Below, one piece after another: positions 13,355 to 29,744 of a DNA stretch of 29,744 nt; within the stretch, counting starts at the first letter, position 1; each line of letters opens with the position of its first letter. The stretch covers positions 1-29,744 of IMG/VR virus record IMGVR_UViG_3300017593_001506. One strand, 5' to 3'. Both the position numbers and the translations under genes were made by a program. Source of the DNA: a virus. The notes under the pieces are model-generated. The model saw only the letters and a program-made list of their open reading frames with translations, ran no database searches and had not been told where the DNA came from.

Positions 13355-14277
13355 TGGTAAAGAAGCAAGTTACGTATTATCAAACTGATGTAAAGAAGGT
13401 AATCGAGGAAGGAAAGAGGGCAACAAGAGGAGGAGGCTTAAGCGGCTTCTTCAATCCAAAAGTTGGGCCGAATGAGATTAGAATTTTACCGCCTTGGAGC
13501 GATAGCGGATTGCCTTTCAAAGAAGTCGTAGTACACTTTGGGATTGGCCCAGAAAGCCAGACAGTCGCTTGTTTGCGTCCGTTTAGGAAAAGATGTTATA
13601 TATGTGAGCAGGTTTCGAAGTTATGGTCTTCAGGTCTAGAACAGGATCAGGATACAGCACGCAGGATCGGAAGAGCGAATAGATATCTGTGGAATATAAT
13701 CGATTTACAAGAACCGGAGAAGGGGGTGCAGATTTTAAGTTGCGGCGTGAAATTATTTGAGCAAATCTGGGCGTACTTCGCAGACGAGGAGTGGGGAGAC
13801 CTAACTAATCCAGATAGCGGATACGATCTGACAATTGTTAGGGAGGGATTGGGATTGAAAACGAGATATACTAGCGTGAGGTTACGTAGGAATCCAACTA
13901 AGTTACAGAATATGGAGTGGTTAGAGTCACTAAACGATTTGGATAAGGCGTTGAACGTCTTGAGCTACGATGCTCAAAAAGAGTTGTACGAAGGATATGC
14001 CGAAGATGAGGAAGTTGGTATAGAAGAAGAAAATGTGATAGAAAGAGTGGAAGTAGCCCCGAAAGTGTCTCCGCCTAAAGTTGAGGAGCCTGGGATAGGT
14101 AGGGTTTTAGAGAAAACCACGTTAGAGAAGAAGTGCTTCGGGAATTTTGATCCACGGTTGTTTGCAGAAAGGGAATGTGTTAAGTGTCCCAAATTACAGG
14201 ACTGTATGAAAGCTGCCCAAGACAATGAAAGCGATGCCCGTGAGATAGAAAGAGAACTGAAGGAGGGGTTAAAGTGA
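13354..14277 (+). CDS. gp32-like single-stranded-DNA-binding protein
   Basis: A 307-aa protein that would coat ssDNA during replication and recombination. The basic N-terminus (1-25), OB-like core (RILPPWSDSGLPFKEVVVHF), and a zinc site H61-x11-C73-x7-C81-x2-C84 closely match the H64/C77/C87/C90 site of T4 gp32. NRYLWNIIDLQEPEKGVQIL and the following segment match phage SSB cores. The tail is acidic (about 220-245), as expected for partner binding, and then carries a second Cys cluster (CFGNFDPRLFAERECVKCPK, then LQDC) absent from T4 gp32. It shares GTGATAA with the next gene. Confidence 0.85.
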   Translation: MVKKQVTYYQTDVKKVIEEGKRATRGGGLSGFFNPKVGPNEIRILPPWSDSGLPFKEVVVHFGIGPESQTVACLRPFRKRCYICEQVSKLWSSGLEQDQDTARRIGRANRYLWNIIDLQEPEKGVQILSCGVKLFEQIWAYFADEEWGDLTNPDSGYDLTIVREGLGLKTRYTSVRLRRNPTKLQNMEWLESLNDLDKALNVLSYDAQKELYEGYAEDEEVGIEEENVIERVEVAPKVSPPKVEEPGIGRVLEKTTLEKKCFGNFDPRLFAERECVKCPKLQDCMKAAQDNESDAREIERELKEGLK

Positions 14278-15065
14278 TAAAAGTTTGTCACCTGGCTTCT
14301 ACGCCCCATTTGAAATTAGCTTCTACCTATTCAAGCTTCTATCTGATGCTAGCTCATGTTAAAGACGAGGGATATTGGAACTTTTTCAAACAGTTAAAGA
14401 AAGAGAGCCCGAAGTTTAAGTTAGTTCTTGACTGCGGAACTTTAGAGAACGGGGTACCTGTAACTAACAAAAGACTATTTGATAAAGCAGTTGAAGTTGG
14501 AGCCGACGCAATTGTAGCACCAGACCACTTTAGAGATTGTAAAAGAACGATAGAATCGACAGAGAAGTTTATAGACTTTCTAAAAGAACGGAACAGACTA
14601 GAAAAAACAGGATTTGAAATTTGGGCAGCAGCGCAGGGAAGGAGTGTGGAGGAGTACTTCACCTCCTTCCTCCGTTTTTATAATAATCCAGACATAGATA
14701 AGGTCTGTCTGAGTTACATAATTGTTAAAGAGGTATTCGACCCAATTGTACATGGACACAGAGTGATGCCTAATCGATTGTATCTTACTAAGTTATTAAA
14801 TGAGTTACAACTAACTAAAAAGCCGATTCATCTATTCGGTCTAGGTAATCCAATTGAGTTAAAGTATCAGAGGATATACCCTTTTATTAAATCATGTGAC
14901 TCCTCAGCAGCGTTCGCATTAGCATCGAGACAATTGTCGTTAGAGAGTAAGGGATATGATAGAGATATAAAGGTGATAGATTTGAATAGAAGATTAAGTG
15001 GACCGGAGGCAGATACATTTGAACATAATATGAGGCAAATAAATAAATGGAGGTGGCCAAGATAA
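14274..15065 (+). CDS. DpdA/Tgt-like 7-deazaguanine transglycosylase
   Basis: A 263-aa TIM-barrel protein of the tRNA-guanine transglycosylase family. The phage members (DpdA) exchange guanine in DNA for preQ0-type bases. Family positions are visible: LDCGTLENG (D53) for the first catalytic Asp, VAPDHFRDCKRTIE (D84) for the base-binding Asp, WAAAQGRSVEEY (Q121-G122), IHLFGLGNP (G189-G191), and KSCDSSAAFALASR (D209) for the nucleophile. The C-terminal zinc site of bacterial Tgt (CxCxxC...H) is absent, as in many short phage forms. The GTG start overlaps the SSB stop, after AAGGAGG. FolE, QueD, QueE and QueC follow, which strongly supports a DNA-modifying role over tRNA. Confidence 0.8.
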   Translation: MIKVCHLASTPHLKLASTYSSFYLMLAHVKDEGYWNFFKQLKKESPKFKLVLDCGTLENGVPVTNKRLFDKAVEVGADAIVAPDHFRDCKRTIESTEKFIDFLKERNRLEKTGFEIWAAAQGRSVEEYFTSFLRFYNNPDIDKVCLSYIIVKEVFDPIVHGHRVMPNRLYLTKLLNELQLTKKPIHLFGLGNPIELKYQRIYPFIKSCDSSAAFALASRQLSLESKGYDRDIKVIDLNRRLSGPEADTFEHNMRQINKWRWPR

Positions 15066-15346
15066 ATATTGAAGAAATAATAAAGGTAATAGCTAGAGGA
15101 CATCCAGAAGAGAGAGAGGGAAAACCTAATAGTTATCCAGAGGCTTGGGATGCTGGGTTTGAGGCGGGATGTAGTTACGCTGTTTTGAAACTCTTGGAGC
15201 TAAAAAAAGAGATGGAGGGAAAGATTCTAGAGGCACAAGGTAGACGTAAGGAGACAAAGGGAGCTAGTAAGTTTTATCTTGGTGGGGTTATCGATGCCTA
15301 TAAGACGTTACTAGGCGCTCAAAAAGAAGAAGGAGGTAATAAGTGA
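15047..15346 (+). CDS. hypothetical protein, 99 aa
   Basis: Begins 19 nt inside the transglycosylase gene, at ATG 15047, and ends with GTGA overlap at FolE. The sequence has IEEIIKVIARGHPEEREGKP, NSYPEAWDAGFEAGCSYAVL and a helical Lys/Glu tail. EAWDAGFEAGCSYAV looks like short phage proteins found beside nucleotide genes, but no function is known. Position inside the 7-deazaguanine operon suggests an accessory role. Confidence 0.6.
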   Translation: MEVAKINIEEIIKVIARGHPEEREGKPNSYPEAWDAGFEAGCSYAVLKLLELKKEMEGKILEAQGRRKETKGASKFYLGGVIDAYKTLLGAQKEEGGNK

Positions 15347-15912
15347 AACATCCATTGAAGTATGAAAGATATGTACATGATTTTCTAGAATATGTAGGGG
15401 AAGACCCGAGCAGAGAAGGGCTAAGAGGTACTCCAAAAAGGGTAGTCGATGCTGTACAAGAGCTCCTAAGAGGATATACGACTCCAATGCCGGACCTAAA
15501 AACCTTTAAGTCTACTAACGATCAAATGGTAGTTTCAAGCGGGATTCATTGTTTCTCTATGTGCGAACACCATGTTTTACCTATCTGGATTGTAGCAGAT
15601 GTTGGATATATACCTAATAAAAAAGTAATCGGTATTTCAAAAATTTCTCGATTAGTCAAATGGTGTTGCGCTAGATTAGTTATCCAGGAGGATTTAACAG
15701 ATAGGATAGCAGAGATTTTAACAGAACGCCTTAACCCTTTAGGAGTTATAGTTGTGTTAAGGGGTAGGCATATGTGTATGGAAATGCGAGGAGTTAAAAC
15801 GAACTCAGTTATTACAACTTCAGCGATAAGAGGTTTGTTTAAAAAGCCTCTAAACACAGGGCTTAACCCAGTCGAAGAGTTTTTACATCATTGTAGAAGG
15901 AGTGTGATATGA
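15343..15912 (+). CDS. folE: GTP cyclohydrolase I
   Basis: Converts GTP to 7,8-dihydroneopterin triphosphate, the first step to preQ0. At 189 aa it matches the single-domain family length. Zinc ligands C74 and H77 lie in FSMCEHHVLP and C145 in RHMCMEMRG, and the substrate pocket runs VIGISKISRLVKW and GVKTNSVITTSAIRG. The start is GTG 15343 after AAGAAGGAGGTAATAA. In this context it supplies the 7-deazaguanine pathway rather than folate. Confidence 0.95.
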   Translation: MKHPLKYERYVHDFLEYVGEDPSREGLRGTPKRVVDAVQELLRGYTTPMPDLKTFKSTNDQMVVSSGIHCFSMCEHHVLPIWIVADVGYIPNKKVIGISKISRLVKWCCARLVIQEDLTDRIAEILTERLNPLGVIVVLRGRHMCMEMRGVKTNSVITTSAIRGLFKKPLNTGLNPVEEFLHHCRRSVI

Positions 15913-16271
15913 GAATAATAGTTGAAACTAAGTCTGAATCAGCTCATTACATCCCAGGACATCCTAAATGCGGGCAGATCCATGGCCACTCATATAAGCT
16001 AAGAGCTGAAATCGGAGGGAAGACGAACCTAAACGGTATGGTTGTTGATTTCGGGGATGTTAAAAAGGTTTTGAGACAATTTGACCACCGTTGTATAAAC
16101 GACGTCGCAAGGGAAAAAAATATTGAGCAGTTAGTAATACCTACAGCGGAGAATCTAGCTAGCTACTTTGTATCGGAAATTGTTAAACTCTTAAACGATC
16201 ACTATTCAATAAAAGTTGTAGTTTGCGAGACTGAAAACAACTGTGCAGAGGAAACTTATGAAAATTTCTGA
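15909..16271 (+). CDS. queD: 6-carboxy-5,6,7,8-tetrahydropterin synthase
   Basis: Converts dihydroneopterin triphosphate to 6-carboxytetrahydropterin, step two of preQ0 synthesis. At 120 aa it has the family length. Zinc histidines H13, H25 and H27 (SAHYIPG and IHGHSY), catalytic C21, MVVDFGDVKK, FDHRCIND and PTAENLA are all present. It overlaps folE by 4 nt and queE by 14 nt. Confidence 0.93.
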   Translation: MRIIVETKSESAHYIPGHPKCGQIHGHSYKLRAEIGGKTNLNGMVVDFGDVKKVLRQFDHRCINDVAREKNIEQLVIPTAENLASYFVSEIVKLLNDHYSIKVVVCETENNCAEETYENF

Positions 16272-16899
16272 GATATTCTACAGTATCCAAGGTGAGGGAG
16301 TGAGTATAGGTAGACCGACAGCATTCGTGAGGACGTATGGCTGTAACTTACGCTGCTCCTATTGTGATACCATTTACGCAAGGGAAGGGGGTAACTTCAC
16401 AGACACAACAGTAGAGGAAGTAGTTGAGAAGGTTAAGGAGTTCCCAACTAGGTTATGCTGTGTAACAGGCGGCGAGCCTATGATACAAGAAGAGATATAC
16501 AACTTAATCGATCTGTTAATAAAGAACAGTTATGAGGTAGACTTAGAAACTAATGGGACAATATTACTTCCGCTTACGTTCTGTTCTAAAGAAAAACTAC
16601 ACGTTGTGGTTGATTGTAAGTGCCCGTGTTCAGGGGAAAATGAATTCAGAGAAGCTAACCTGGGCAGACTCTCTGATAAAGATGCTGTCAAGTTTGTAGT
16701 AAGAGATAAGACAGATTTTAGTTTTATTAAGAAAAAGTTAAAAGAGTGGGGTGGACCTGAGTTAAAGTACTTAGTTTCACCTATTTGGGGTGAGGCGGAC
16801 CTCGCAGAAGTAGCAGAGTTCGTAAAAGGTGACAGCCGTCTCACCCTTAACCTTCAGTTGCATAAAATAGTTTGGCCAAATAAAGTTGGAGGAGTTTAA
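16258..16899 (+). CDS. queE: 7-carboxy-7-deazaguanine synthase (radical SAM)
   Basis: Radical SAM enzyme converting 6-carboxytetrahydropterin to 7-carboxy-7-deazaguanine. ATG 16258 is chosen over the in-frame GTG 16243 because homologues start MKISEIFYSIQGEG and AGAGGAAA precedes it; this gives 213 aa. The cluster cysteines are C29, C33 and C36 in GCNLRCSYCDT. VTGGEPMIQ binds SAM, FYSIQGEG binds substrate, and LQLHKIVWP is the typical C-terminal motif. It follows queD with a 14-nt overlap. Confidence 0.94.
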   Translation: MKISEIFYSIQGEGVSIGRPTAFVRTYGCNLRCSYCDTIYAREGGNFTDTTVEEVVEKVKEFPTRLCCVTGGEPMIQEEIYNLIDLLIKNSYEVDLETNGTILLPLTFCSKEKLHVVVDCKCPCSGENEFREANLGRLSDKDAVKFVVRDKTDFSFIKKKLKEWGGPELKYLVSPIWGEADLAEVAEFVKGDSRLTLNLQLHKIVWPNKVGGV

Positions 16900-16902
16900 T
16901 AA

Positions 16903-17523
16903 ATGATAGAAACGAGAGTAAAAAATCTATGGAAGTTGCTGTTACTAACTTCTATTTTTATCGGAAGTCTAGTAATAGCAAATGTGATTGTCAGTAAAAT
17001 TATTGCTGCATTCTGGTATTTTTGCATACCAGGGGGGGTGATAGCATATGCGGTTACTTTTTTAATGACAGATACAATCTGTGAGGTTTGGGGTAAAAAG
17101 ATAGGGAATCTTATTGTAGCTGTAGGCTTTTTGGCGCAGCTGGTTGTTCTATGCTTAACAATGGTTACATTAAAGTGGCCGGCTGCTGGGTTCTGGAAAA
17201 ATCAAGCTGCCTTTGAGAGTATATTAGGTATAATGCCACGCATAGTCTTAGCATCGTTAATAGCGTATTTAGTCTCACAGTTTCACGATATCTGGGCATT
17301 CCATAAATGGAAAACCATCACAAAAGGTAAACATTTGTGGATTAGAAATAATGCATCCACTATGGTATCCCAGTTTATAGACAGTGTGATATTCGTGACA
17401 ATAGCGTTTGCTGGGGTAATGCCTGTACAGCCGTTAGTCCTAGGCCAATGGGTATTTAAGTTGATAATAGCTGCAATTGATACTCCGTTTGTGTACGGGT
17501 TAGTAAACTGGGCTAAAAAATAA
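16903..17523 (+). CDS. YhhQ/QueT-type queuosine-precursor transporter
   Basis: An integral membrane protein of 206 aa with about six hydrophobic segments (roughly 11-33, 43-57, 66-88, 108-127, 153-172, 182-200). Family marks include TDTICEVWGKKIGN, SQFHDIWAFHKWK, RNNASTMVSQFIDSVIFV and the terminal DTPFVYGLVNW. The family (DUF165) imports preQ0, preQ1 or queuine. Encoded by a phage beside the preQ0 synthesis genes, it would let infected cells take up the base or a precursor. It starts 3 nt after queE. Confidence 0.88.
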   Translation: MIETRVKNLWKLLLLTSIFIGSLVIANVIVSKIIAAFWYFCIPGGVIAYAVTFLMTDTICEVWGKKIGNLIVAVGFLAQLVVLCLTMVTLKWPAAGFWKNQAAFESILGIMPRIVLASLIAYLVSQFHDIWAFHKWKTITKGKHLWIRNNASTMVSQFIDSVIFVTIAFAGVMPVQPLVLGQWVFKLIIAAIDTPFVYGLVNWAKK

Positions 17524-17534
17524 ATTACAATATT

Positions 17535-17633
17535 CTCCCGCTCTGTGGTGGAATAGGTAAACACAAGGACTGGTAACTGCTCTGAAACGCCAGTAATGGG
17601 CTTGCAGAGTGCGAATCTTTGCCGGAGTGGGAG
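17535..17633 (+). ncRNA. tRNA-like structured RNA, copy B (99 nt)
   Basis: The ends pair over 11 bp: CTCCCGCTCTG (17535-17545) with CGGAGTGGGAG (17623-17633), extendable by two A-T pairs. The D-arm-like GTGGAATAGGTAAACAC (17548-17564) follows TG as in tRNA-Leu. A T-arm-like GCAGAG-TGCGAAT-CTTTGC (17604-17622) abuts the 3' strand. The middle arm is AAG/CTT with ACTGG (17569-17573) pairing CCAGT (17590-17594) around a 16-nt loop, so no 7-nt anticodon loop forms. The long acceptor stem and absence of CCA separate it from a normal tRNA. It shares both ends with copy A and lies between the transporter and queC. Confidence 0.65.
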
Positions 17634-17655
17634 AAAATAACTCTCCGTTAGGTAG

Positions 17656-17698
17656 TATGGTTGCCGTTCGTTCATAAAGGATAGGCGGCAACCGCATA
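17656..17698 (+). other. hairpin in the queC leader
   Basis: GGTTGCCG (17659-17666) pairs perfectly with CGGCAACC (17686-17693) around a 19-nt loop, and TATG/CATA extends it after a small bulge. It ends 13 nt before the queC ATG, ahead of AAAGGAGGAG. There is no T tract, so it looks like a leader structure rather than a terminator. Confidence 0.55.
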
Positions 17699-17711
17699 AA
17701 AGGAGGAGTAA

Positions 17712-18443
17712 ATGAAAAACAAAACTTGTATCGTCCTATGGAGTAAGGGCATGGATAGCACGGTATGCCTGTGGGTAGCATCGAAAAAATTTAAAGACGT
17801 TATTGCACTAAAAATTTTCTACGGCCAAAAGTGCAGAGAAGAAATGAGGCCTTGGGGTACAGCTTTACCAAAGAATGTTAAAGTAAAAGATATAGATTAT
17901 AATCTAAATTTCTGTAATTCTTCTTTAGTTCGATCTAGCGAAGATGTTAAACGTTCGAGAGAATTAAGTAGCAAAATTCCGAGAACTTTCATGCCGTGTA
18001 GAAATCTAATTTTCTTGACATTAGCAGCAGCGTACGGTTACCCCGACATTGTAGACATTTTTATAGGTACAAATACGATTGATTACAGTGGGTACTCAGA
18101 TTGTCGTTCTAACTTCTTGTATCATGCAGAAAACACAATCTCACTTGCTCTAGATAAAAAAGTTAAGATACATCGACCGTTACAACAATTAAGTAAGGCA
18201 GATATTATAAAGTGGGGTATAGATTTAGGAGTCGACTTTGCTAATACTGTTTCTTGCTATAACCCGAGTTTTGGCGTCCCGTGTTTCATACCGCCACTAA
18301 AAGTTTCATCGAAAATGAGTCTAGAAGAGTTACAGAAAGATCCAGTTGGATGTGAGAGTTGCGTCATAAGATGTAAAGCATTTAATAAGCTTAAAATGGT
18401 TGACCCGTTGTTAACAAGATTGAGAAAGGAGGGGTTGATATAG
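17712..18443 (+). CDS. queC: 7-cyano-7-deazaguanine (preQ0) synthase
   Basis: ATP-dependent enzyme turning 7-carboxy-7-deazaguanine into preQ0; 243 aa. The pyrophosphatase loop reads WSKGMDSTVCLW (11-17 SKGMDST; most members have SGGxDST). PCRNLIFLTLAAAYG and IGTNTIDYSGYSDCR are typical. The zinc site is unusual: C182 and then GCESCVIRC (C214, C217, C221), with about 30 residues inserted, including C191, where the family has about 8. It may still bind zinc through C191. The start follows AAAGGAGGAGTAA. Confidence 0.9.
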   Translation: MKNKTCIVLWSKGMDSTVCLWVASKKFKDVIALKIFYGQKCREEMRPWGTALPKNVKVKDIDYNLNFCNSSLVRSSEDVKRSRELSSKIPRTFMPCRNLIFLTLAAAYGYPDIVDIFIGTNTIDYSGYSDCRSNFLYHAENTISLALDKKVKIHRPLQQLSKADIIKWGIDLGVDFANTVSCYNPSFGVPCFIPPLKVSSKMSLEELQKDPVGCESCVIRCKAFNKLKMVDPLLTRLRKEGLI

Positions 18444-18844
18444 TGCATTTGTACATGACGTATTGTTGTAGACAAAAACACTTTTCCATTTTACCGCAAA
18501 CACCTGAGAAGTTATATATCTCGAAGCGTATAAAACAGTTCTTCGACTTTGTTAAAGCTAATAACTTACCGTTTGCAGTTTTCTCTGACAAATATGGCGT
18601 AGTATTTTCAAATGAAAAAATTATGTGGTATGATGTACCTCCAGGGAAAGTAAGAAATAGAACTAAGCTCTTTACTCGAGCATTGACAGAGCTTCGGAGA
18701 AGAGGCATTTCTAAAATCTGTTTCTGGGCCCCCGCTCCTCTAGAACCCTTATATAAAGAATTTATAAAGGAGTTGAGAAATACCTTTCCAGTTTGCGTAA
18801 GAAAAGAACTAGTTGTGTTTAAAGAAGATAAAGGAAGGAGGTAA
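18443..18844 (+). CDS. DUF6884/ArcS-like small protein
   Basis: A 133-aa alpha/beta protein starting GTG 18443, sharing a base with the queC stop. The pattern MTYCCRQKH near the N-terminus, then FAVFSDKYGVVFSNEKIMWYDVP (45-67) and ISKICFWAPAPLEPLYKEFI matches the layout of DUF6884-type proteins and of the archaeosine-synthase (ArcS, DUF5591) N-terminal fold: first strand plus Cys/Ser, 'SxKYG', later a (P)xxY element. Its place directly after queC suggests a role in handling or further modifying the 7-deazaguanine base. Family assignment is from pattern only. Confidence 0.5.
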   Translation: MHLYMTYCCRQKHFSILPQTPEKLYISKRIKQFFDFVKANNLPFAVFSDKYGVVFSNEKIMWYDVPPGKVRNRTKLFTRALTELRRRGISKICFWAPAPLEPLYKEFIKELRNTFPVCVRKELVVFKEDKGRR

Positions 18845-21525: not shown

Positions 21526-21830
21526 AACAATGGAACAAAATAAGAAACATCCTAGGGGATAGGCAGACGGCCTATGGTAACACGTTTGCATTGGGTAAGA
21601 GAGCGTTTGATAGGAACGCCGATCTCTTAATAGCAAAGGCGTATAGGTTAGAGGAACAGGTCTTTGGTATGCGAGGGAAAGATGTGAAACAGATAACAAA
21701 TTCAGTTATTGATATGGCTGGCTATTGTACGTTACTACTAACTTTAATAGAGGAAGGAAAAATAGGTGAAGCTAAAGGGACACGTGGGGAGAGGACGGAT
21801 ATTAGCGCCGCTCCTGATGGAACAGTATAA
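21507..21830 (+). CDS. DUF1599-like (nucleotide modification associated) protein
   Basis: A 107-aa helical protein after AATAAGGAGGAAAAG. It resembles DUF1599 (Nmad1): RQTAYGNTFALGKRAFDRNA at about 19-38, then AYRLEEQVFG, and VIDMAGYCTLLLTLIEEGK at the end, matching the family's 'YG...RL.DK..RL...D...DLA.YA.L....' pattern. That family is linked by gene context to modified nucleotides in phages, which suits the 7-deazaguanine genes here. The call is by pattern only. Confidence 0.5.
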   Translation: MEERFLKQWNKIRNILGDRQTAYGNTFALGKRAFDRNADLLIAKAYRLEEQVFGMRGKDVKQITNSVIDMAGYCTLLLTLIEEGKIGEAKGTRGERTDISAAPDGTV

Positions 21831-22638
21831 GAAAGGGATATTTGGCGTAAGACAGACACCTGAATTCACTTTACCGAAAGGGATGAAAGCAGGTAGTAGA
21901 GCGCATTTACGTTTCGTAACTATATGTGCCCCATTGTCTTATATACGCAATGCTGATGAGCTTCATAAAGCTGCGCGAGAGACTTATGAGGACGAATCGA
22001 CTAGATTCTTGTTTTATCCGAAGCAGGTTTTGAAGAAAACTAAAGAGGAAGTTTATGAGGCGTTGGTGAAACATGGGTTAGGCAAAAGGATACATAGAGA
22101 GACGGACTCATTTATCATACCCCTATCCCAGAATCTAGCTTATTTGTTTGATGGCGATCCATACAATATGTTCCAACACTTCGACTTTGATGCAAGGGTG
22201 ATTTACGAGGAAATGAGAGGGGAGTTCGCTAATTGGTTCCCATATATTTCTGGAATCAAAGTAATCTCATTCTATTTGAGAGAGGTTTCGACGTTAGGCT
22301 TTAAGTTTAAGTTAAAGAATTTAGATAAGATTCCAATTCCCGTAGATGTAAATCTATCACGGGCTACTATAAAATTAGGTTGCGTGACTGGAAGGTTTGA
22401 AGGTTGGGTTGAAGACGCTAATAACGTTATACGGGATTATTGGAGCGAAGTTTGTAAAGGTGAAAAATTCTACCCTCTACAACTTGATCAACCCCTCTGG
22501 TTGCTGGGTAAGCACGGTTGTAAGCTGAGTAAGCGTAATTATTGTCCGAAAGAGAAGGAATGTTACTTTGCTGCTTTTTGTAAGGAAGGCGTATTCGAAA
22601 AAAGTAGCGACTTTGTTAAAATAGATATAGGAGGTTAG
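21766..22638 (+). CDS. probable HhH/Fe-S-like protein of unknown function, 290 aa
   Basis: GTG 21766 lies inside the previous gene and follows GAGGAAGGAAAAATA. The C-terminal half is helical and contains IPIPVDVNLSRATIKLGCV (about 191-209), reminiscent of the HhH-GPD 'PvDthv.R...rlG' element. It ends with GKHGCKLSKRNYCPKEKECY then FAAFC, a four-cysteine run spaced C-x7-C-x5-C-x5-C that could hold a [4Fe-4S] cluster as in endonuclease III (C-x6-C-x2-C-x5-C). A DNA or nucleotide glycosylase-type role is possible, and relevant beside 7-deazaguanine genes. Low certainty. Confidence 0.45.
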   Translation: MKLKGHVGRGRILAPLLMEQYKKGIFGVRQTPEFTLPKGMKAGSRAHLRFVTICAPLSYIRNADELHKAARETYEDESTRFLFYPKQVLKKTKEEVYEALVKHGLGKRIHRETDSFIIPLSQNLAYLFDGDPYNMFQHFDFDARVIYEEMRGEFANWFPYISGIKVISFYLREVSTLGFKFKLKNLDKIPIPVDVNLSRATIKLGCVTGRFEGWVEDANNVIRDYWSEVCKGEKFYPLQLDQPLWLLGKHGCKLSKRNYCPKEKECYFAAFCKEGVFEKSSDFVKIDIGG

Positions 22639-23629: not shown

Positions 23630-24070
23630 ATGGTAGACGATTCTATTCTCAGAATTTCGGAGAAAAAGTACTTACAGACTTTGAAATTACTAGTCGAAGA
23701 CGTTAAACATTTAGCAACGCAGCTCGATTTTGTGGTTGGGATTGCAAGGGGAGGGTTAATTCCAGCAACTGTTATTGCTAAAAAGTTTAATAAACCACTG
23801 CTGGTAGTTTACGCATCTTTGTATAAAGGAAGAACAAAAGATACATTAAGGCTAGAATTACCGAAAAGAATAGATCATATAAAGGGTAAACACGTATTGT
23901 TAATTGATGATATTGTGGACACGGGTGAGACATTAGATGCAGTCCAGACTCAAATAATGAACTTTGAACCTGAGCGAGTAGTTGTTAGATCCCTGTTTTC
24001 AAAAGAGGAAAAAATATATAGCGTTCTAAACCTAAAAACAGAGAAGTGGGTCCGTTTTTGGTATGAATAA
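23630..24070 (+). CDS. type I phosphoribosyltransferase
   Basis: A 146-aa PRTase. The PRPP-binding motif is HVLLIDDIVDTGET (88-101); the first loop is VVGIARGGLIPATVIA (36-50). The short hood region and the size are like xanthine-guanine or hypoxanthine PRTases, so a purine or purine-like base (possibly a deazapurine, given the neighbourhood) is the likely substrate. It is the last + strand gene, and the - strand genes converge on it 36 bp away. Confidence 0.85.
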   Translation: MVDDSILRISEKKYLQTLKLLVEDVKHLATQLDFVVGIARGGLIPATVIAKKFNKPLLVVYASLYKGRTKDTLRLELPKRIDHIKGKHVLLIDDIVDTGETLDAVQTQIMNFEPERVVVRSLFSKEEKIYSVLNLKTEKWVRFWYE

Positions 24071-24106
24071 AACTTGGGGAGGTGCCTGGCAGATGTTCAA
24101 GAAGCA

Positions 24107-24306
24107 TTACGCGACTACAGGTGCCTCCACGAACTTTCTAACATTTTCACTATTAAGCTTAATATACTCACTGTCAACTCTTATCCAACGCGCTCCAGGT
24201 TGATACTTCCTTAACTCTCTTACATCTAGATGTAATCCTTTATGCGCCCAGCTAGGATAAATACCTATCCCGTTAAAACTAAACCTCTCCGCAGCTAAAT
24301 AAAAAT
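24107..24306 (-). pseudogene. C-terminal half of an M15 peptidase (endolysin), separated by inversion
   Basis: Reading leftward from 24306 this gives DFYLAAERFSFNGIGIYP, then SWAHKGLHLDVRELRKYQ, then PGARWIR, to a stop at 24107. GIGIYP and HLDVR with following RW are the C-terminal marks of M15A-type D-Ala-D-Ala carboxypeptidases, including zinc ligand H102 of the rebuilt protein. There is no start of its own. Its N-terminal half is on the opposite strand at 24378-24617. Flipping 24307-24606 joins them in frame at L76/D77. Confidence 0.8.
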
Positions 24307-24606
24307 CAAGCAGAAGGGTTAAATCCCGAGTCGAAAGCTGCGAAGCAATTGATCGAAAAAGTAAAAGGAAAGGTGAGTTGACGAAGAAGGAGTGGGAGAC
24401 TACCAAGCATTTCACTGTTAATGAAAACTTTGGTGATCCTTTTAAGATGGATTACAGTCTGCTGAAGAGGTTGGATGCGTTAAGAGAGTTCGTAGATAAA
24501 CCGATTACAATTTTATGTGGGTATGCAACATCTGGACACGTGAAAAATTCTCAACACTACTTTGGAAAGGCTGTGGATTGTTACTGTGAAGATTTAAGTC
24601 TGCTTG
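24307..24606. other. inverted 300-bp segment with 8-bp inverted repeats at its ends
   Basis: CAAGCAGA at 24307-24314 and TCTGCTTG at 24599-24606 are exact inverted repeats, and no longer homology extends beyond them. The segment carries, on the + strand, 24313-24381 (the last ~22 codons of the membrane protein) and the M15 N-terminal half. If inverted, codons run on in both genes without shift, and the membrane protein stop overlaps the M15 TTG start (TTGA at 24378-24381). No recombinase gene or longer recombination site is adjacent. Confidence 0.85.
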
Positions 24607-24617
24607 TAACCCCTTAA
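24378..24617 (+). pseudogene. N-terminal half of the M15 peptidase (endolysin), inside the inverted segment
   Basis: TTG 24378 follows AAGGAAAGGTGAG and opens MTKKEWETTKHFTVNENF, a run KRLDALREFVDKPITILCGY, then NSQHYFGKAVD with zinc ligands H60 and D67 (SxHxxGxAxD). After codon 76 (24605) the frame leaves the gene and stops at 24617 after three foreign residues. The third zinc ligand lies on the other fragment. As drawn, no active peptidase can be made. The rebuilt enzyme is 142 aa, the usual size of small phage M15 endolysins. Confidence 0.82.
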
Positions 24618-24780
24618 TTATCATATCAATTATCTTATCAACGTTGTCTGGTGTTACCTCTTTCACTTTCGTCAAAATATCAATTACAACGTTAATGTAC
24701 TTCTTTCTCGGATCTATCCCGTATGCTCCTAGTACTAGAGCGATCACTACTGCCACTATGTATACTATGTGTAGTATCAC
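24505..24780 (-). pseudogene. holin-like membrane protein, 3' end displaced by the inversion
   Basis: GTG 24780 follows AGGAGGTGAAAGAAA. Residues 1-60 read MILHIVYIVAVVIALVLGAY and then GIDPRKKYINVVIDILTKVK..., with one membrane helix (2-20) and a helical region. At 24607 the reading frame crosses the inversion border and picks up 31 unrelated residues ending at 24505. With the segment flipped the protein is 82 aa, ending in NPESKAAKQLIEKVKGKVS, and its stop overlaps the M15 start. Position just before the endolysin suggests a holin, though with only one membrane helix. Confidence 0.7.
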
Positions 24781-24786
24781 TTTCTT

Positions 24787-24924
24787 TCACCTCCTTTCTA
24801 CCAATATTCTTAGAATAAACTTTTTAACTTCGTCTAGATTTTCACAAAGTTCATGCACTTCACTCTCAGGTATTACGTGAACTTCCCACAACTTATCTCC
24901 ATATGTTTCAACTAGAAATTTCAT
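24787..24924 (-). CDS. hypothetical protein, 45 aa
   Basis: ATG at 24924 overlaps the stop of the preceding - strand gene (ATGA) and has GGAGGCGGA just upstream. The product starts MKFLVETYGDKLWEVHVIPE and ends LRILVERR; the last codons supply the AGGAGGTGA of the holin-like gene. It resembles a short beta-strand/helix unit, and has no known family. Confidence 0.55.
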   Translation of the reverse strand: MKFLVETYGDKLWEVHVIPESEVHELCENLDEVKKFILRILVERR

Positions 24925-25403
24925 TCCGCCTCCTTTCTAAACTCGTAGGAAAGTCCGAAGTAGACTGTACCCTCACTTGTTAATAATTGAGCATCCGCCT
25001 TTTCGAAAATCTCAGCAACATCCTTAAGTAATGGGATGCCCCTAAACTCTACCCCGTAAAATGTCGGCTGGTCGAATAACTCTTTTTCTTCGTATTTTAC
25101 TACTTTACCTACAACTACCGCCCACTCAGATCTTTTCCAGACAGATTCTGGTTTCGACTCCCATATTGTTATCTGTAGGCCACTATAAACTTTGTCCTGG
25201 AAATTAGCGTTAGGTTTCGCAGTTTACATGAATCTCGTAAACAGTTCTGCTAAGAAGTCGACTTGTTCGGTTATATACTCGCCCAAGTTAACTGGATTTT
25301 CCCGAACAACTTCCGTACTAAATATCTTCTCACGGCATATCCCTTGAGTAGACAGAGCGAACAACAGGGACAAAATCAACGGAATTACAAAGAGTCTTTT
25401 CAT
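24921..25403 (-). pseudogene. secreted protein gene interrupted by an in-frame TAA
   Basis: ATG 25403 follows AAGGAGGTGTGAG. A signal peptide (MKRLFVIPLILSLLFALSTQ) leads into 59 codons ending in TAA at 25224-25226. The same frame then continues open for 100 codons to TGA 24921 (TAKPNANFQDKVYSGLQ, ITIWESKPESVWKRSEW, FYGVEFRGIPLLKDVAEIF, VYFGLSYEFRKEAE). No start codon with a ribosome site precedes the second part, so one gene of 161 codons with a single nonsense codon is the simplest reading. A single-base change (for example from GAA, CAA or AAA) would restore it. In the lysis region, a spanin-like or envelope role is possible. Confidence 0.65.
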
Positions 25404-25426
25404 CTCACACCTCCTTCCAGCTTCGG

Positions 25427-25906
25427 TTACATCATAATAAAGTAAGTTTGGTACTTTGACCTCTTTTCTTCTTTCGCCAGAATTAATTCATCTGTTTGCG
25501 GTTCTACTAGATATACCTGCATCTCATTATCACTATCCAAGGCAACTAATACATTGTATGCGTGAACCATAGAGGTAGCTATTCCAAAGGTAATATCACT
25601 CCAACCAGGGATACTGAATTGCCCCATTAATCTGAATGAAAAATCATCGCAGTCGAAGAATTCTGGAATATATTTATATAAGTCGGTCTTATCCTCTTTC
25701 AAGAACTTTTTCATATTCTCCAGCGTTGGTACCTTATATTTTTTGTCGACTAAAAACAACTGACACGCCTTGCCCAATACTCCTCTTAATAAATTCTTCA
25801 ACTCTGCGTTTGTAATAATTTTCCTTCCTTTCTTCTTAGGCTTGGGGATAAGCCAAGCTATTAGTAAAAAGCAAAGCCAAACAATACCATTCTTAACAGC
25901 TCTCAT
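25427..25906 (-). CDS. papain-like (MOA-type) protease-domain protein with N-terminal membrane segment
   Basis: A 159-aa protein with a membrane or signal segment (8-20), a basic stretch, and a catalytic-looking domain: PEFFDCDDFSFRL (C86), MVHAYNVLVAL (H115, N118), VYLVEPQTDEL (E135, Q137). The order C-D-D-F ... H-A-x-N ... EPQ is that of the papain-fold C-terminal domain of the mushroom agglutinin MOA and its phage relatives. ATG follows AGGAGGTAAAATA, located in the last codons of the upstream gene. Within a lysis/tail operon it could cleave proteins or peptide cross-links. Confidence 0.65.
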   Translation of the reverse strand: MRAVKNGIVWLCFLLIAWLIPKPKKKGRKIITNAELKNLLRGVLGKACQLFLVDKKYKVPTLENMKKFLKEDKTDLYKYIPEFFDCDDFSFRLMGQFSIPGWSDITFGIATSMVHAYNVLVALDSDNEMQVYLVEPQTDELILAKEEKRSKYQTYFIMM

Positions 25907-25910
25907 TATT

Positions 25911-26747
25911 TTACCTCCTGATATTTATTGTAAATTTTTCTGTAGCCGGCATAGAATTCGTAATGCCTATAAAGTCTCTTGTTTCAATTTGTGCAATTCC
26001 ATGTAAAACCGACCATGTTATATCTCCTTTAAGATAATCTAATAGAAATTCAGCAGCCTTTTCGTCTAGTTCCTTCATTACCTTTAAGAACATTTTTCCT
26101 TGTTTCTCACTTTCCTCGCATTGAAAAGAACAAGTTAATTGGGGAACAATGCGTAATCCAAAATATCGCATACACTCATTAGCATACCCATTTGTCTTTA
26201 AAGTGATAGTATTTCCCTCTCTTTTTGCTCCTTCTGTATTCTCTGCTGCCTGCCAAATAGGATCATAATATCCCTCAGCCCAAACTTTAGTGAAAAAGTT
26301 AGCGCAGCACTTTGGGTAACCAAGAAGTTCTGCAAGTATTTTATGATCACATTTGCCTTGAGATGCCTTTTTGAATTTTTGAGCATATTCCAATTTCCAG
26401 GATACAGCACCATAAACTGTGGATTGAGGATCATCTTTGCTAGTAGGAAAATGTTTATGGCTGAATCCTTCATAACACTTTGAGCGTTGAATCGGAATCC
26501 AAAATAGACCATCATTTGTGATTCTTTCAATTTGGTCTTCGAATCCTCGAGGTCTAACATGGAAAGTGTAAACTTTCCTTAATTTTCTTCTTACTGTCTC
26601 GTATTCAGCAAGATTACAGATGTGACTTGCTCTTTGAATCAAGTCTACAATCTTATCATTTTCCTTCTTCCAGAAAATTTTTGTGAAAGGAGGAATATCT
26701 AACCCCTCAATTAGTTTCATTTTATTTCCTTTCATAGATTCTCGCAA
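25911..26747 (-). CDS. DUF483-like protein
   Basis: TTG 26747 is preferred because GGAGG lies 6 nt upstream; ATG 26720 (with AAAGGA) is an alternative. A longer reading back to 26783 would overlap the previous gene and lacks a ribosome site. The 278-aa product contains CDHKILAELLGYPKCCANFF, followed by GYANECMRYFGLRIVPQLTC and SFQCEE. The GYP-x-CC-xx-FF motif and several later cysteines fit DUF483, a family of unknown function known mostly from archaea and phages. It sits in the same operon as the radical SAM enzyme, separated by one 50-aa gene, so it may work with it. Confidence 0.65.
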   Translation of the reverse strand: MRESMKGNKMKLIEGLDIPPFTKIFWKKENDKIVDLIQRASHICNLAEYETVRRKLRKVYTFHVRPRGFEDQIERITNDGLFWIPIQRSKCYEGFSHKHFPTSKDDPQSTVYGAVSWKLEYAQKFKKASQGKCDHKILAELLGYPKCCANFFTKVWAEGYYDPIWQAAENTEGAKREGNTITLKTNGYANECMRYFGLRIVPQLTCSFQCEESEKQGKMFLKVMKELDEKAAEFLLDYLKGDITWSVLHGIAQIETRDFIGITNSMPATEKFTINIRR

Positions 26748-26763
26748 CTTGAAACCTCCGAAT

Positions 26764-26916
26764 TTATTCGTCTGGATGAGCACCTAAATGAAAATCAAAT
26801 AGATTTTTCAGCATTTCTAACGCATCTTCCTTATTATCGAATTCTTGCTCAATACTAGGCGCAGCTTCCAGCCTGATATAAATTTTTCCCTCTGATATAT
26901 TTATTATTAATCTCAT
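26764..26916 (-). CDS. hypothetical protein, 50 aa
   Basis: ATG 26916 overlaps the stop of the radical SAM gene (ATGA), with GGAG 7 nt upstream. The product MRLIINISEGKIYIRLEAAP then SIEQEFDNKEDALEMLKNLF has two strands and a helix, the size of a small peptide-binding or RRE-like element, but too short for certainty. It lies between the radical SAM and DUF483-like genes. Confidence 0.55.
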   Translation of the reverse strand: MRLIINISEGKIYIRLEAAPSIEQEFDNKEDALEMLKNLFDFHLGAHPDE

Positions 26917-28244
26917 CCCGAATCTCCATGTCTTTGATAATTGCCGTGTGGTATATCGGCATGTTTACCCTCATAACCTTTTGGAGGTTTATCATTCCAA
27001 TCTTCCCAATCTCGCTCTGGATTATTCGAATCACTGTGTCTAGCATAATCTCCGTGTGAATCGGAATGGTCTTCTCCTCCCCTTTCCCTCCTCTTTTTTC
27101 TTGTATAATTAGAAGAGGTTCTCCAAGTGGAACCCTCCATTCTTTCAACCTTATTGCAAAACTTGTAATTAGACACAGAATCTTCCGGTCCTTCAACTTT
27201 ATAATCAGTTATTAACTTTATCCTAGGGAATAGACCTCTGCTCCGTTTTTCAATCTTTTCGTACAAGGAATAATAGACTTCGCAAAATACCGATTTATTC
27301 CTCCAATCTCCGTCAATTGCCTCCGAGGGACATAATCCAGAACATATTGGCCAGTATTTACAGCCTTTACATCCTCCAAACTCCTTTGGTGTATTGAATA
27401 ACGCTTCGTACCTGATCTTTATAGGTGCTTCACCTTGCAGAACATTGCCACTTACCACTGTTTTCATACAATTTCTAATACTCCCGTCACCCAAAATAAC
27501 ATGCGCTGAGTTAGTCCAAAAAGGGTCGCACTGATGGTAAATACAAGTTGATTGCCTAAATCCCATCAAATTATCTATTATATCTCTAAAAGGTTGCCAT
27601 TGTAATTTATCGTCGGCAAGAATAAAATCGCACATATCTGAATAGAAATCCTTGAATTCATTAACGGTCGGAACATAATCCCCTTTTCCTAATACTGGAT
27701 TCATTCGTCCACTTGGACAGCCAATTCCCTTCATTTCCATAATAAAATCCTTAAACTTCTTTCGCTGTTTTGGAAGGCAGTTATATTTTGTTATTACCGA
27801 AATTAGTCCCACTGAAATCTTTTCGTATCGTAGTTTGTAGATATTTTTGATAACTTTTATTGTCCGCTCCTTATTTTTTTCTCTCCATCTCCCCATGTTT
27901 AGTTCATCGGGTCCATCAATAGAAATTCCAATAGCTGTTTTATATTTCTTAAACATTGCTATAATTTCATCATCGATTAGCAATCCGTTTGTCTGCATCG
28001 ATGTTTTCCCAGCAAGTTCGAACCCTTTTTTTAATAACTTTTCAAGGTCATGTTTAGGAATTAATAGAGGCTCACCTCCATGCAGACAAATATCAGTCTT
28101 AAATCGCTTGTGAGCGGTTTCCATAGCTGATAATACTCTACTTAAATCGTAGTCTAAAAGCATTTTCTTTTTTCTTAAATTATTCTCATAGCAATAAATA
28201 CAATTGCTATTACATCTCATTGTTGGCTTAACTAATATGCTCAT
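26913..28244 (-). CDS. radical SAM/SPASM peptide maturase with Asp/His-rich tail
   Basis: A 443-aa enzyme of the peptide-modifying radical SAM family. The catalytic cluster is C11, C15, C18 in MRCNSNCIYCYE, with HGGEPLL (55-61) and GISIDGP (106-112). The SPASM region has C234, C239, C259 and CKGCKYWPICSGLCPSEA (C292, C295, C301, C305), then C321, enough for two auxiliary Fe-S clusters as in anSME and PqqE-like enzymes. Residues 391-443 are not part of the enzyme fold: they repeat the style of the neighbouring protein (HSDSHGDYARHSDS, DWEDWNDKP). The ATG overlaps the stop of the repeat protein by one base (TAATG), so the two are translationally coupled. A part of the gene is duplicated in reverse at the window end. 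Confidence 0.9.
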   Translation of the reverse strand: MSILVKPTMRCNSNCIYCYENNLRKKKMLLDYDLSRVLSAMETAHKRFKTDICLHGGEPLLIPKHDLEKLLKKGFELAGKTSMQTNGLLIDDEIIAMFKKYKTAIGISIDGPDELNMGRWREKNKERTIKVIKNIYKLRYEKISVGLISVITKYNCLPKQRKKFKDFIMEMKGIGCPSGRMNPVLGKGDYVPTVNEFKDFYSDMCDFILADDKLQWQPFRDIIDNLMGFRQSTCIYHQCDPFWTNSAHVILGDGSIRNCMKTVVSGNVLQGEAPIKIRYEALFNTPKEFGGCKGCKYWPICSGLCPSEAIDGDWRNKSVFCEVYYSLYEKIEKRSRGLFPRIKLITDYKVEGPEDSVSNYKFCNKVERMEGSTWRTSSNYTRKKRRERGGEDHSDSHGDYARHSDSNNPERDWEDWNDKPPKGYEGKHADIPHGNYQRHGDSG

Positions 28245-29365
28245 TAAACTTCTCCTTCATAAGCTGGTTTATCTGTATGACCTGCTCCCGAATCATTATG
28301 ATTATCCCAGTCTTGGTATGCGACATCGGAATAATCTGCGTGATCGGAGTGCGGTCTGTCGGAATACTTTGTATAGTCTTCATATCCTGTTCCTGTATCT
28401 TCGTGCGAATAATCCAAATGTTCAACGTCGGAATGATCGCTATGGTCATCGTGAGGTACGTCGGAATGGTCACCATGGTCTCGATGCGCTGTATCATTGT
28501 GATCGCTGTGGTCTTCGTGAGCATCATCTATATGGTCATTCCATTCATCTCCCGAATTACTGTGATCGTTATGGTCTTCGTGAGCATCATCTATGTGCGG
28601 CATATCTGACCAAGTAGTATTATCATGATCGCTATGATTATCGTGGTTATCCCACTGAAAATGGTCGTGATATGGGCCGGAATAAGAGTCTTCATGGTCA
28701 TCATAATCATCATGATCGTCGTGATCTTCATAAATTTCATCGGACCAATCACTATAAGCTTCGTCATTGTGCTGATCCCAATCGCTATGTGTGTCAGTAT
28801 GATCGCCCCAATCATCATAAGGAACATTATCATGGTCATCCCAATTTGTATGGGAATCGTTGTGGTCATCCCAATCTGAATGTGCTGTATCGTCATGGTC
28901 ATCCCAATTTGAATGTGCTATATCATGATGATCCTGATGATCTGCATGCACATCATTATATTCGTCCCAATCACTATAATCAGTATGAGGTGCTGTATCA
29001 TAATGATATGTTCCATCTTGATGAGCAGAATCATTATGCGGTGAAGAATCCTGGTGAAATGAATCGTCATGATTCTCGTGTGCGATATATCTTTCTTCTC
29101 CCGCTTGGTCAATGATTCTGGGATAATTCTCAATCCAGATGCTGCCTTGTAATGCTCCAGTTGGAAAATTACTAGTTGAAGTCATAGTAATAATCCGCTT
29201 ATGACCATCATCATCAATATACGCAATCAAAGAACCTTCAATCCAAAGCGAGCCTTTTAACCCTGCAACTAATCCTTCGTCTGTTCCTTCAATCGAATAT
29301 TCACTGCTTCCTTTTATCCAATGTAATTTAGTCCCCTCAACCCAAATACTTCCTGATTTTGCCAT
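28244..29365 (-). CDS. Asp/His/Trp repeat fibre-like protein, likely radical SAM substrate
   Basis: A 373-aa protein, very acidic and without cysteine. Residues 1-94 hold three beta units starting GSIWVEG, GSLWIEG and GSIWIEN, of a type seen in phage tail-fibre modules. Residues 95-365 are about 24 imperfect 11-residue repeats of the form [ST]-x-x-H-x-D-[WHY]-x-D-H-x-D; for example TAHSDWDDHND (160-170), DVPHDDHSDHS and TAHRDHGDHSD. The C-terminus ends HTDKPAYEGEV. It lies after a tail-type gene and immediately before the radical SAM/SPASM gene (one-base overlap), an arrangement typical of precursor and maturase. The many Asp/His could bind metal in a trimeric shaft. Function is inferred. Confidence 0.75.
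   Translation of the reverse strand: MAKSGSIWVEGTKLHWIKGSSEYSIEGTDEGLVAGLKGSLWIEGSLIAYIDDDGHKRIITMTSTSNFPTGALQGSIWIENYPRIIDQAGEERYIAHENHDDSFHQDSSPHNDSAHQDGTYHYDTAPHTDYSDWDEYNDVHADHQDHHDIAHSNWDDHDDTAHSDWDDHNDSHTNWDDHDNVPYDDWGDHTDTHSDWDQHNDEAYSDWSDEIYEDHDDHDDYDDHEDSYSGPYHDHFQWDNHDNHSDHDNTTWSDMPHIDDAHEDHNDHSNSGDEWNDHIDDAHEDHSDHNDTAHRDHGDHSDVPHDDHSDHSDVEHLDYSHEDTGTGYEDYTKYSDRPHSDHADYSDVAYQDWDNHNDSGAGHTDKPAYEGEV
28271..29083 (-). repeat. degenerate 33-bp tandem repeats encoding the Asp/His array
   Basis: The coding DNA of residues 95-365 repeats with a 33-nt period (11 codons), most clearly between 28790 and 28920, where GTCATCCCAATNTGAATG-type units recur on the + strand. Units are diverged in third positions, so the array has been kept by protein-level selection rather than recent slippage. 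Such repeats are also hard to assemble, and their copy number here may not be exact. Confidence 0.75.
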
Positions 29366-29366
29366 A

Positions 29367-29663
29367 TTAGCTCGCCCACTTATCTGACCCTACTGGTAAT
29401 ACCATTGCCCCTGCTTCGACGTCGCCCTTAAAAAACGCATTCCCTGTATTAGCGGATAAATTAAACATTATGGTACCACTTGTAATAGCAGCAATTCCGC
29501 TCGAATTGATTGTAATTACATCGTCCCCCGCTTTTATTGTCGAGAGATCTGCGTTTATCGACTTAATCATATTCGCTTCAATTGAGTTAACTGTAAATTT
29601 TTGATCGCTTCCTGGCGATGTGTAAATACTCGAAGATAAATTACTCGCCCTGTTCGTTCCCAT
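29367..29663 (-). CDS. tail-protein fragment, 98 aa shown
   Basis: Reading leftward from ATG 29663: NLSSSIYTSPGSDQKFTVNS, IEANMIKSINADLSTIKAGD, DVITINSSGIAAITSGTIMF, NTGNAFFKGDVEAG. ITINSSGI and GNAFFKGDVEAG are typical of baseplate/tail-fibre attachment proteins, in which a beta repeat follows a conserved helix. The ATG has no ribosome site, and the frame is open upstream (EQKL-M) to the foreign junction at 29677, so the real protein is probably longer and its N-terminal part lies outside the window. The stop is one base from the next ATG. Confidence 0.6.
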   Translation of the reverse strand: MGTNRASNLSSSIYTSPGSDQKFTVNSIEANMIKSINADLSTIKAGDDVITINSSGIAAITSGTIMFNLSANTGNAFFKGDVEAGAMVLPVGSDKWAS

Positions 29664-29676
29664 TAATTTCTGCTCT

Positions 29677-29744
29677 GCAACCTTTTAGAGATATAATAGA
29701 TAATTTGATGGGATTTAGGCAATCAACTTGTATTTACCATCAGT
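29677..29744. repeat. inverted copy of 27530-27597 (radical SAM gene) at the window end
   Basis: These last 68 bases are the exact reverse complement of 27530-27597, inside the radical SAM gene. Identity starts at GCAACC (29677-29682) and stops being testable at the window end. It cuts into the tail gene reading frame just upstream of 29663. A fold-back of the contig (chimera or misassembly) explains it more simply than a natural duplication without any divergence. Confidence 0.9.

Follow-up and report, generated by a model that had tools for sequence, protein, structure and literature searches.

A 300-bp inversion through a phage lysis cassette, probably arising from DNA amplification

In site-specific invertons (Gin/Hin/Cin-type serine invertases, tyrosine-recombinase shufflons and invertible promoters), a short segment between inverted repeats is found in both orientations. 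Inverted chimeras made during multiple-displacement amplification (MDA) join opposite strands of nearby sequence through a short complementary overlap. MDA chimeras are 85% inverted, with most sites <10 kb apart and priming at 2-21 nt (Lasken and Stockwell 2007, PMC1855051), and in a larger survey the distance peaked at 250-300 nt and most overlaps were 5-8 nt (PMC4595205). Such an event commonly yields one inverted junction together with a deletion. Multi-switch read pairs account for about 3-4% of chimeras (PMC4595205), and complex multi-inversion molecules have been reported from high-gain MDA (PMC13265396).

The locus described here resembles both. Like an inverton, it is a short segment between inverted repeats that occurs in both orientations; unlike the site-specific systems, its repeat is 8 bp, no linked recombinase was found, and the inversion destroys essential-looking lysis coding sequence instead of exchanging it. 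With MDA chimeras it shares nearby sequence joined in inverted orientation, a 7-8 nt overlap and a separation close to the 250-300 nt peak; the contig also contains a second such junction. It differs from their common product in that two junctions together make an inversion without loss.

The inverted segment and a contig with the opposite orientation

The window, meaning the whole stretch of DNA analyzed, is 29,744 bases long and covers IMG/VR record IMGVR_UViG_3300017593_001506 entirely. Scanning 2.9 million viral contigs for the endolysin encoded at this locus returned one relative, IMGVR_UViG_3300016457_001505 (L002/L022, here L022; 8,007 bp), which is 99.94-100% identical to the window over 23630-29683. 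The alignment falls into pieces corresponding to window 29683-24599 (99.94%, 3 differences in 5,085 bp), 24307-24606 (100%, opposite strand) and 24314-23630 (100%), and adjoining pieces share precisely the 8-bp repeat. The features of the segment are as follows.

24307-24606, no strand assigned: inverted 300-bp segment; it matches L022 7031-7330 at 100%, with both flanks matching on the other strand
24307-24314, plus strand: left repeat CAAGCAGA, a breakpoint; the L022 alignment pieces overlap by exactly these 8 bp
24599-24606, minus strand: right repeat TCTGCTTG, a breakpoint, from the L022 alignment
24319-24325, plus strand: second inverted repeat TTAAATC, nested inside the first pair, whose partner is GATTTAA at 24591-24597; the arm duplex pairs both stretches

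A sequence-only reading of the window had proposed a 300-bp inversion at 8-bp inverted repeats and had suggested looking for the other orientation in related phages. L022 bears this out, as it carries the segment in the opposite orientation and the strand changes exactly within the 8 bp. The nested TTAAATC/GATTTAA pair was rejected as the crossover site because the bases between the two repeats travel with the segment in L022. Two additional scans used flank-plus-repeat sequences and would have recognized either orientation; neither returned another contig, and records close to the window were possibly excluded from them. The drawn inversion is absent from L022, the only other copy found, and each orientation is represented by one contig. 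Other relatives were set aside as guides to the locus: L023, an 88% relative, stops before the lysis genes, and the polymerase relatives L006-L021, at 23-35% amino acid identity, are too far removed.

An 8-bp inverted repeat by itself is nothing unusual here and is common by chance: 310 exact pairs of this length with a span of 50-500 bp occur in the window, 58 of them spanning 250-350 bp. In arm stability, the CAAGCAGA/TCTGCTTG pair ranks 5th among 138 pairs of similar span. In a DNA folding at 30°C of the segment together with its flanks, only ~14% of the ensemble contained the 8-bp stem, so there is no strong hairpin. The well-pairing arms and the nested 7-bp repeat could favor template switching, either in the tube or in the cell.

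The lysis genes at the inversion

Both genes of a putative lysis cassette are interrupted in the drawn orientation, as had been read from the window alone. The parts are listed below.

24378-24617, plus strand: ORF with the N-terminal half of an M15 endolysin (residues 1-76; H60, D67), TTG start
24107-24415, minus strand: ORF encoding endolysin residues 77-142 (the C-terminal half, with H102), of which 24107-24306 is genuine
24505-24780, minus strand: ORF of a small membrane protein upstream of the endolysin, GTG start; genuine N-terminal part 24607-24780
24307-24381, plus strand: C-terminal portion of the small membrane protein; its stop codon overlaps the endolysin start in TTGA at 24378-24381
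24789-24795, minus strand: ribosome-binding site AGGAGGT of the membrane-protein gene, seen in the sequence

Re-inverting the segment restores minus-strand ORFs of 82 and 142 amino acids, joined by the TTGA overlap, with no frameshift, and both are intact in L022 (the 82-amino-acid protein, with one transmembrane helix, at L022 6857-7105). It also unites the zinc ligands H60, D67 and H102; these and D104 show no variation when aligned with four phage M15 peptidases. The intact L022 endolysin matches PF05951 (36.1 bits, cut-off 27), PF08291 (25.4 bits, cut-off 23.2) and phrog_894, endolysin (3.1e-10), whereas the N-terminal half alone gives a weak PF08291 match of 19.1 bits, below the cut-off. 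Judged from its family matches above the curated cut-offs and its conserved zinc ligands, the intact form is predicted to be an M15 peptidase endolysin. It shares H60, D67, H102 and D104 with the M15 endolysins of Faecalibacterium phage FP_oengus and Flavobacterium phage hemulen9-1; it differs from M15 endolysins (PF08291/PF05951; phrog_894) in having only 32-38% identity to them and a longer C-terminus after the ARW motif. No relatives of the endolysin were found in 84,980 prokaryotic genomes, and a sequence search of solved structures gave a single weak match, which was irrelevant.

In several phages with related M15 peptidases, the peptidase adjoins or lies near an annotated holin, a PF05105-annotated protein or a protein with a transmembrane helix, as here, but the membrane protein of the window phage matches no holin family. 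Its description as “holin-like” holds for its position and its one hydrophobic segment and not for family membership; searches with the 82-amino-acid protein gave no PHROG match at E<=0.01 and only a sub-threshold match to DUF2120 in Pfam. The L022 orientation is taken as the functional one, and the window orientation as derived, because the L022 endolysin is intact, its ligands are invariant, and related phages carry the peptidase near a holin or membrane protein. Most likely, the lysis cassette of the native phage is an ordinary one of two genes, for a small membrane protein and an M15 peptidase endolysin, with the former probably coupled translationally to the latter through the TTGA overlap.

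A programmed on/off lysis switch, in which the phage reversibly inactivates the endolysin and its membrane partner by inverting the 300 bp with a site-specific recombinase from the host or from an unsequenced part of the phage, is consistent with the presence of both orientations in near-identical contigs and with the clean way in which inversion turns both genes off and on. Against it, the repeat is only 8 bp, no longer than repeats that arise by chance, and is one of the 310 pairs counted above. Neither PF00589 (tyrosine recombinase) nor PF00239 (serine recombinase) was found in six frames of the window, which is a phage fragment, so that a host enzyme could be supposed. A literature search for a precedent of an invertible endolysin returned nothing relevant. 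We regard a switch as extremely unlikely.

The window end, the substitutions and the origin of the inversion

The contig also ends in a fold-back.

29677-29744, plus strand: chimeric window end, a perfect reverse complement of 27530-27597, with 7-nt microhomology GCAACCT at 29677-29683

This fold-back, remarked on in the sequence-only reading, is real. L022 and the window are in agreement up to and including 29683 and diverge beyond it; L022 is colinear with L023 through the fold-back point (80% over that stretch). Because L022 is continuous and colinear with L023 past 29683, the last 68 bases of the window are an inverted chimera joined at GCAACCT. No exact 30-nt terminal fold-back was found among the other viral contigs compared by their ends (a small sample).

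Three substitutions separate the window from L022.

25226, minus strand: L022 has G and the window A, turning a Gln codon of a minus-strand ORF into a stop; outside L023 coverage
26569, minus strand: L022 and L023 have C and the window T, giving Tyr in place of Cys
29470, minus strand: L022 and L023 have G and the window A, giving Ile in place of Thr; the local L023 match is only 69%

All are G:C>A:T in the window and change the protein, one being nonsense. L023 agrees with L022 at both sites that it covers (26569 and 29470), making two of the substitutions private to the window. The set, although small at n=3, is more in keeping with damaged template or copying mistakes in low-input DNA than with variation under selection. 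The 25226 stop, absent from L022, cuts an ORF at 25209-25404 (minus strand) that has a signal-like N-terminus.

Relative to L022, both the inversion and the window end join opposite strands of nearby sequence through short complementary overlaps. For the inversion the overlap is 8 nt and the arms lie 284 nt apart (292 nt when computed with the distance formula of PMC4595205); for the fold-back it is 7 nt, at about 2.1 kb. Both fit the published dimensions of phi29/MDA inverted chimeras, and the inversion lies on the peak. The earlier statement that short microhomology and inverted orientation are typical of MDA agrees with PMC1855051 and PMC4595205. Its treatment of switch and chimera as equal options does not stand, since the chimeric end shown by L022 and the typical dimensions favor a chimera, and no recombinase in the window, long repeats or recurrence in other contigs was found to support a switch.

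We therefore consider that the inversion is probably an amplification (template-switch) chimera, absent from the phage genome. Here we infer both that the sample was amplified and that amplification, rather than mutation in vivo, made the inversion. The destruction of a conserved lysis enzyme in the drawn orientation and the lack of a tyrosine or serine recombinase match in the window also count for a chimera. In such a scheme, low-input template would have been amplified by a strand-displacing (MDA-type) reaction in which template switching took place. A 3' end with CAAGCAGA as its last bases would detach and anneal to the complementary TCTGCTTG ~290 nt away on the displaced strand, from which the segment would be copied in reverse. 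The second junction could come from equivalent mis-priming on the opposite strand or from a second switch within one molecule, and it could fall at the same site because the repeat reads identically from either side. Alternatively, the assembly may have merged two snap-back products formed separately, one left flank-reversed segment-left flank and the other right flank-segment-right flank. In either case, assembly would join flank, reversed segment and flank, and the fold-back at the window end would be the product of the same kind of event.

Some points count against a chimera. An inversion without loss needs two junctions, because one template switch yields only a fold-back; the contigs (2) and substitutions (3) are few; and the well-paired arms could favor inversion in the cell. 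A real but sporadic inversion in vivo, in the phage or in a minority of its population, would arise by template switching in replication or by recombination at the short repeat, and would be an unregulated loss of function. It predicts what is seen at the junctions, which lie at the same repeat with no base lost; the nested 7-bp partner strengthens repeat pairing, and the phage encodes RecA and SbcCD-like proteins. At the sequence level, an inversion made in vivo at the same repeat would look identical. However, with the endolysin and its partner destroyed, it should not become common in the phage; the same contig carries the chimeric end and a nonsense substitution relative to L022; and no other contig with the inversion was found in the viral contig scans. 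We judge this origin unlikely.

A purely computational mis-assembly, formed without any inverted molecule, might be suspected from the 68-nt fold-back, which indicates that the assembly was tangled there. Assemblers normally use k-mers or overlaps far longer than 8 bp. The repeat is too short for this, and without chimeric reads no path joins the segment in reverse, making a mis-assembly very unlikely.

Other genes of the contig and implications

A run of genes at 14274-18844 suggests a phage with 7-deazaguanine-modified DNA.

14274-15065: TGT-type (DpdA-like) protein, the likeness judged by eye
15343-15912: GTP cyclohydrolase
15909-16271: PTPS/QueD
16243-16899: radical SAM QueE-like protein
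16903-17523: Vut_1/YhhQ-like transporter
17712-18443: QueC

At 21766-22638 there is a match to an AGOG-type N-glycosylase/DNA lyase (28.2 bits, cut-off 26.1), an enzyme best known in archaea. An Asp/His/Trp-rich repeat protein with many D-H-x-D units (28244-29365, minus strand) had no family match. It lies directly upstream of a radical SAM protein (26913-28244, minus strand) whose own C-terminus has similar H-x-D motifs and which is 93% identical in L023; the repeat protein is possibly modified. Past the right end of the window, L022:91-520 and L023:4831-5577 hold a further repeat-rich coding stretch, with many offset translated matches between the two.

If the lysis switch were true, part of the phage population would be unable to lyse its host. 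We know of no earlier invertible lysis enzyme, and that of the window would then be the first. For viral contigs in general the locus is a warning: before short, gene-breaking inversions at 5-9-bp inverted repeats are called phase variation, independent contigs should be compared and contig ends inspected for fold-backs.
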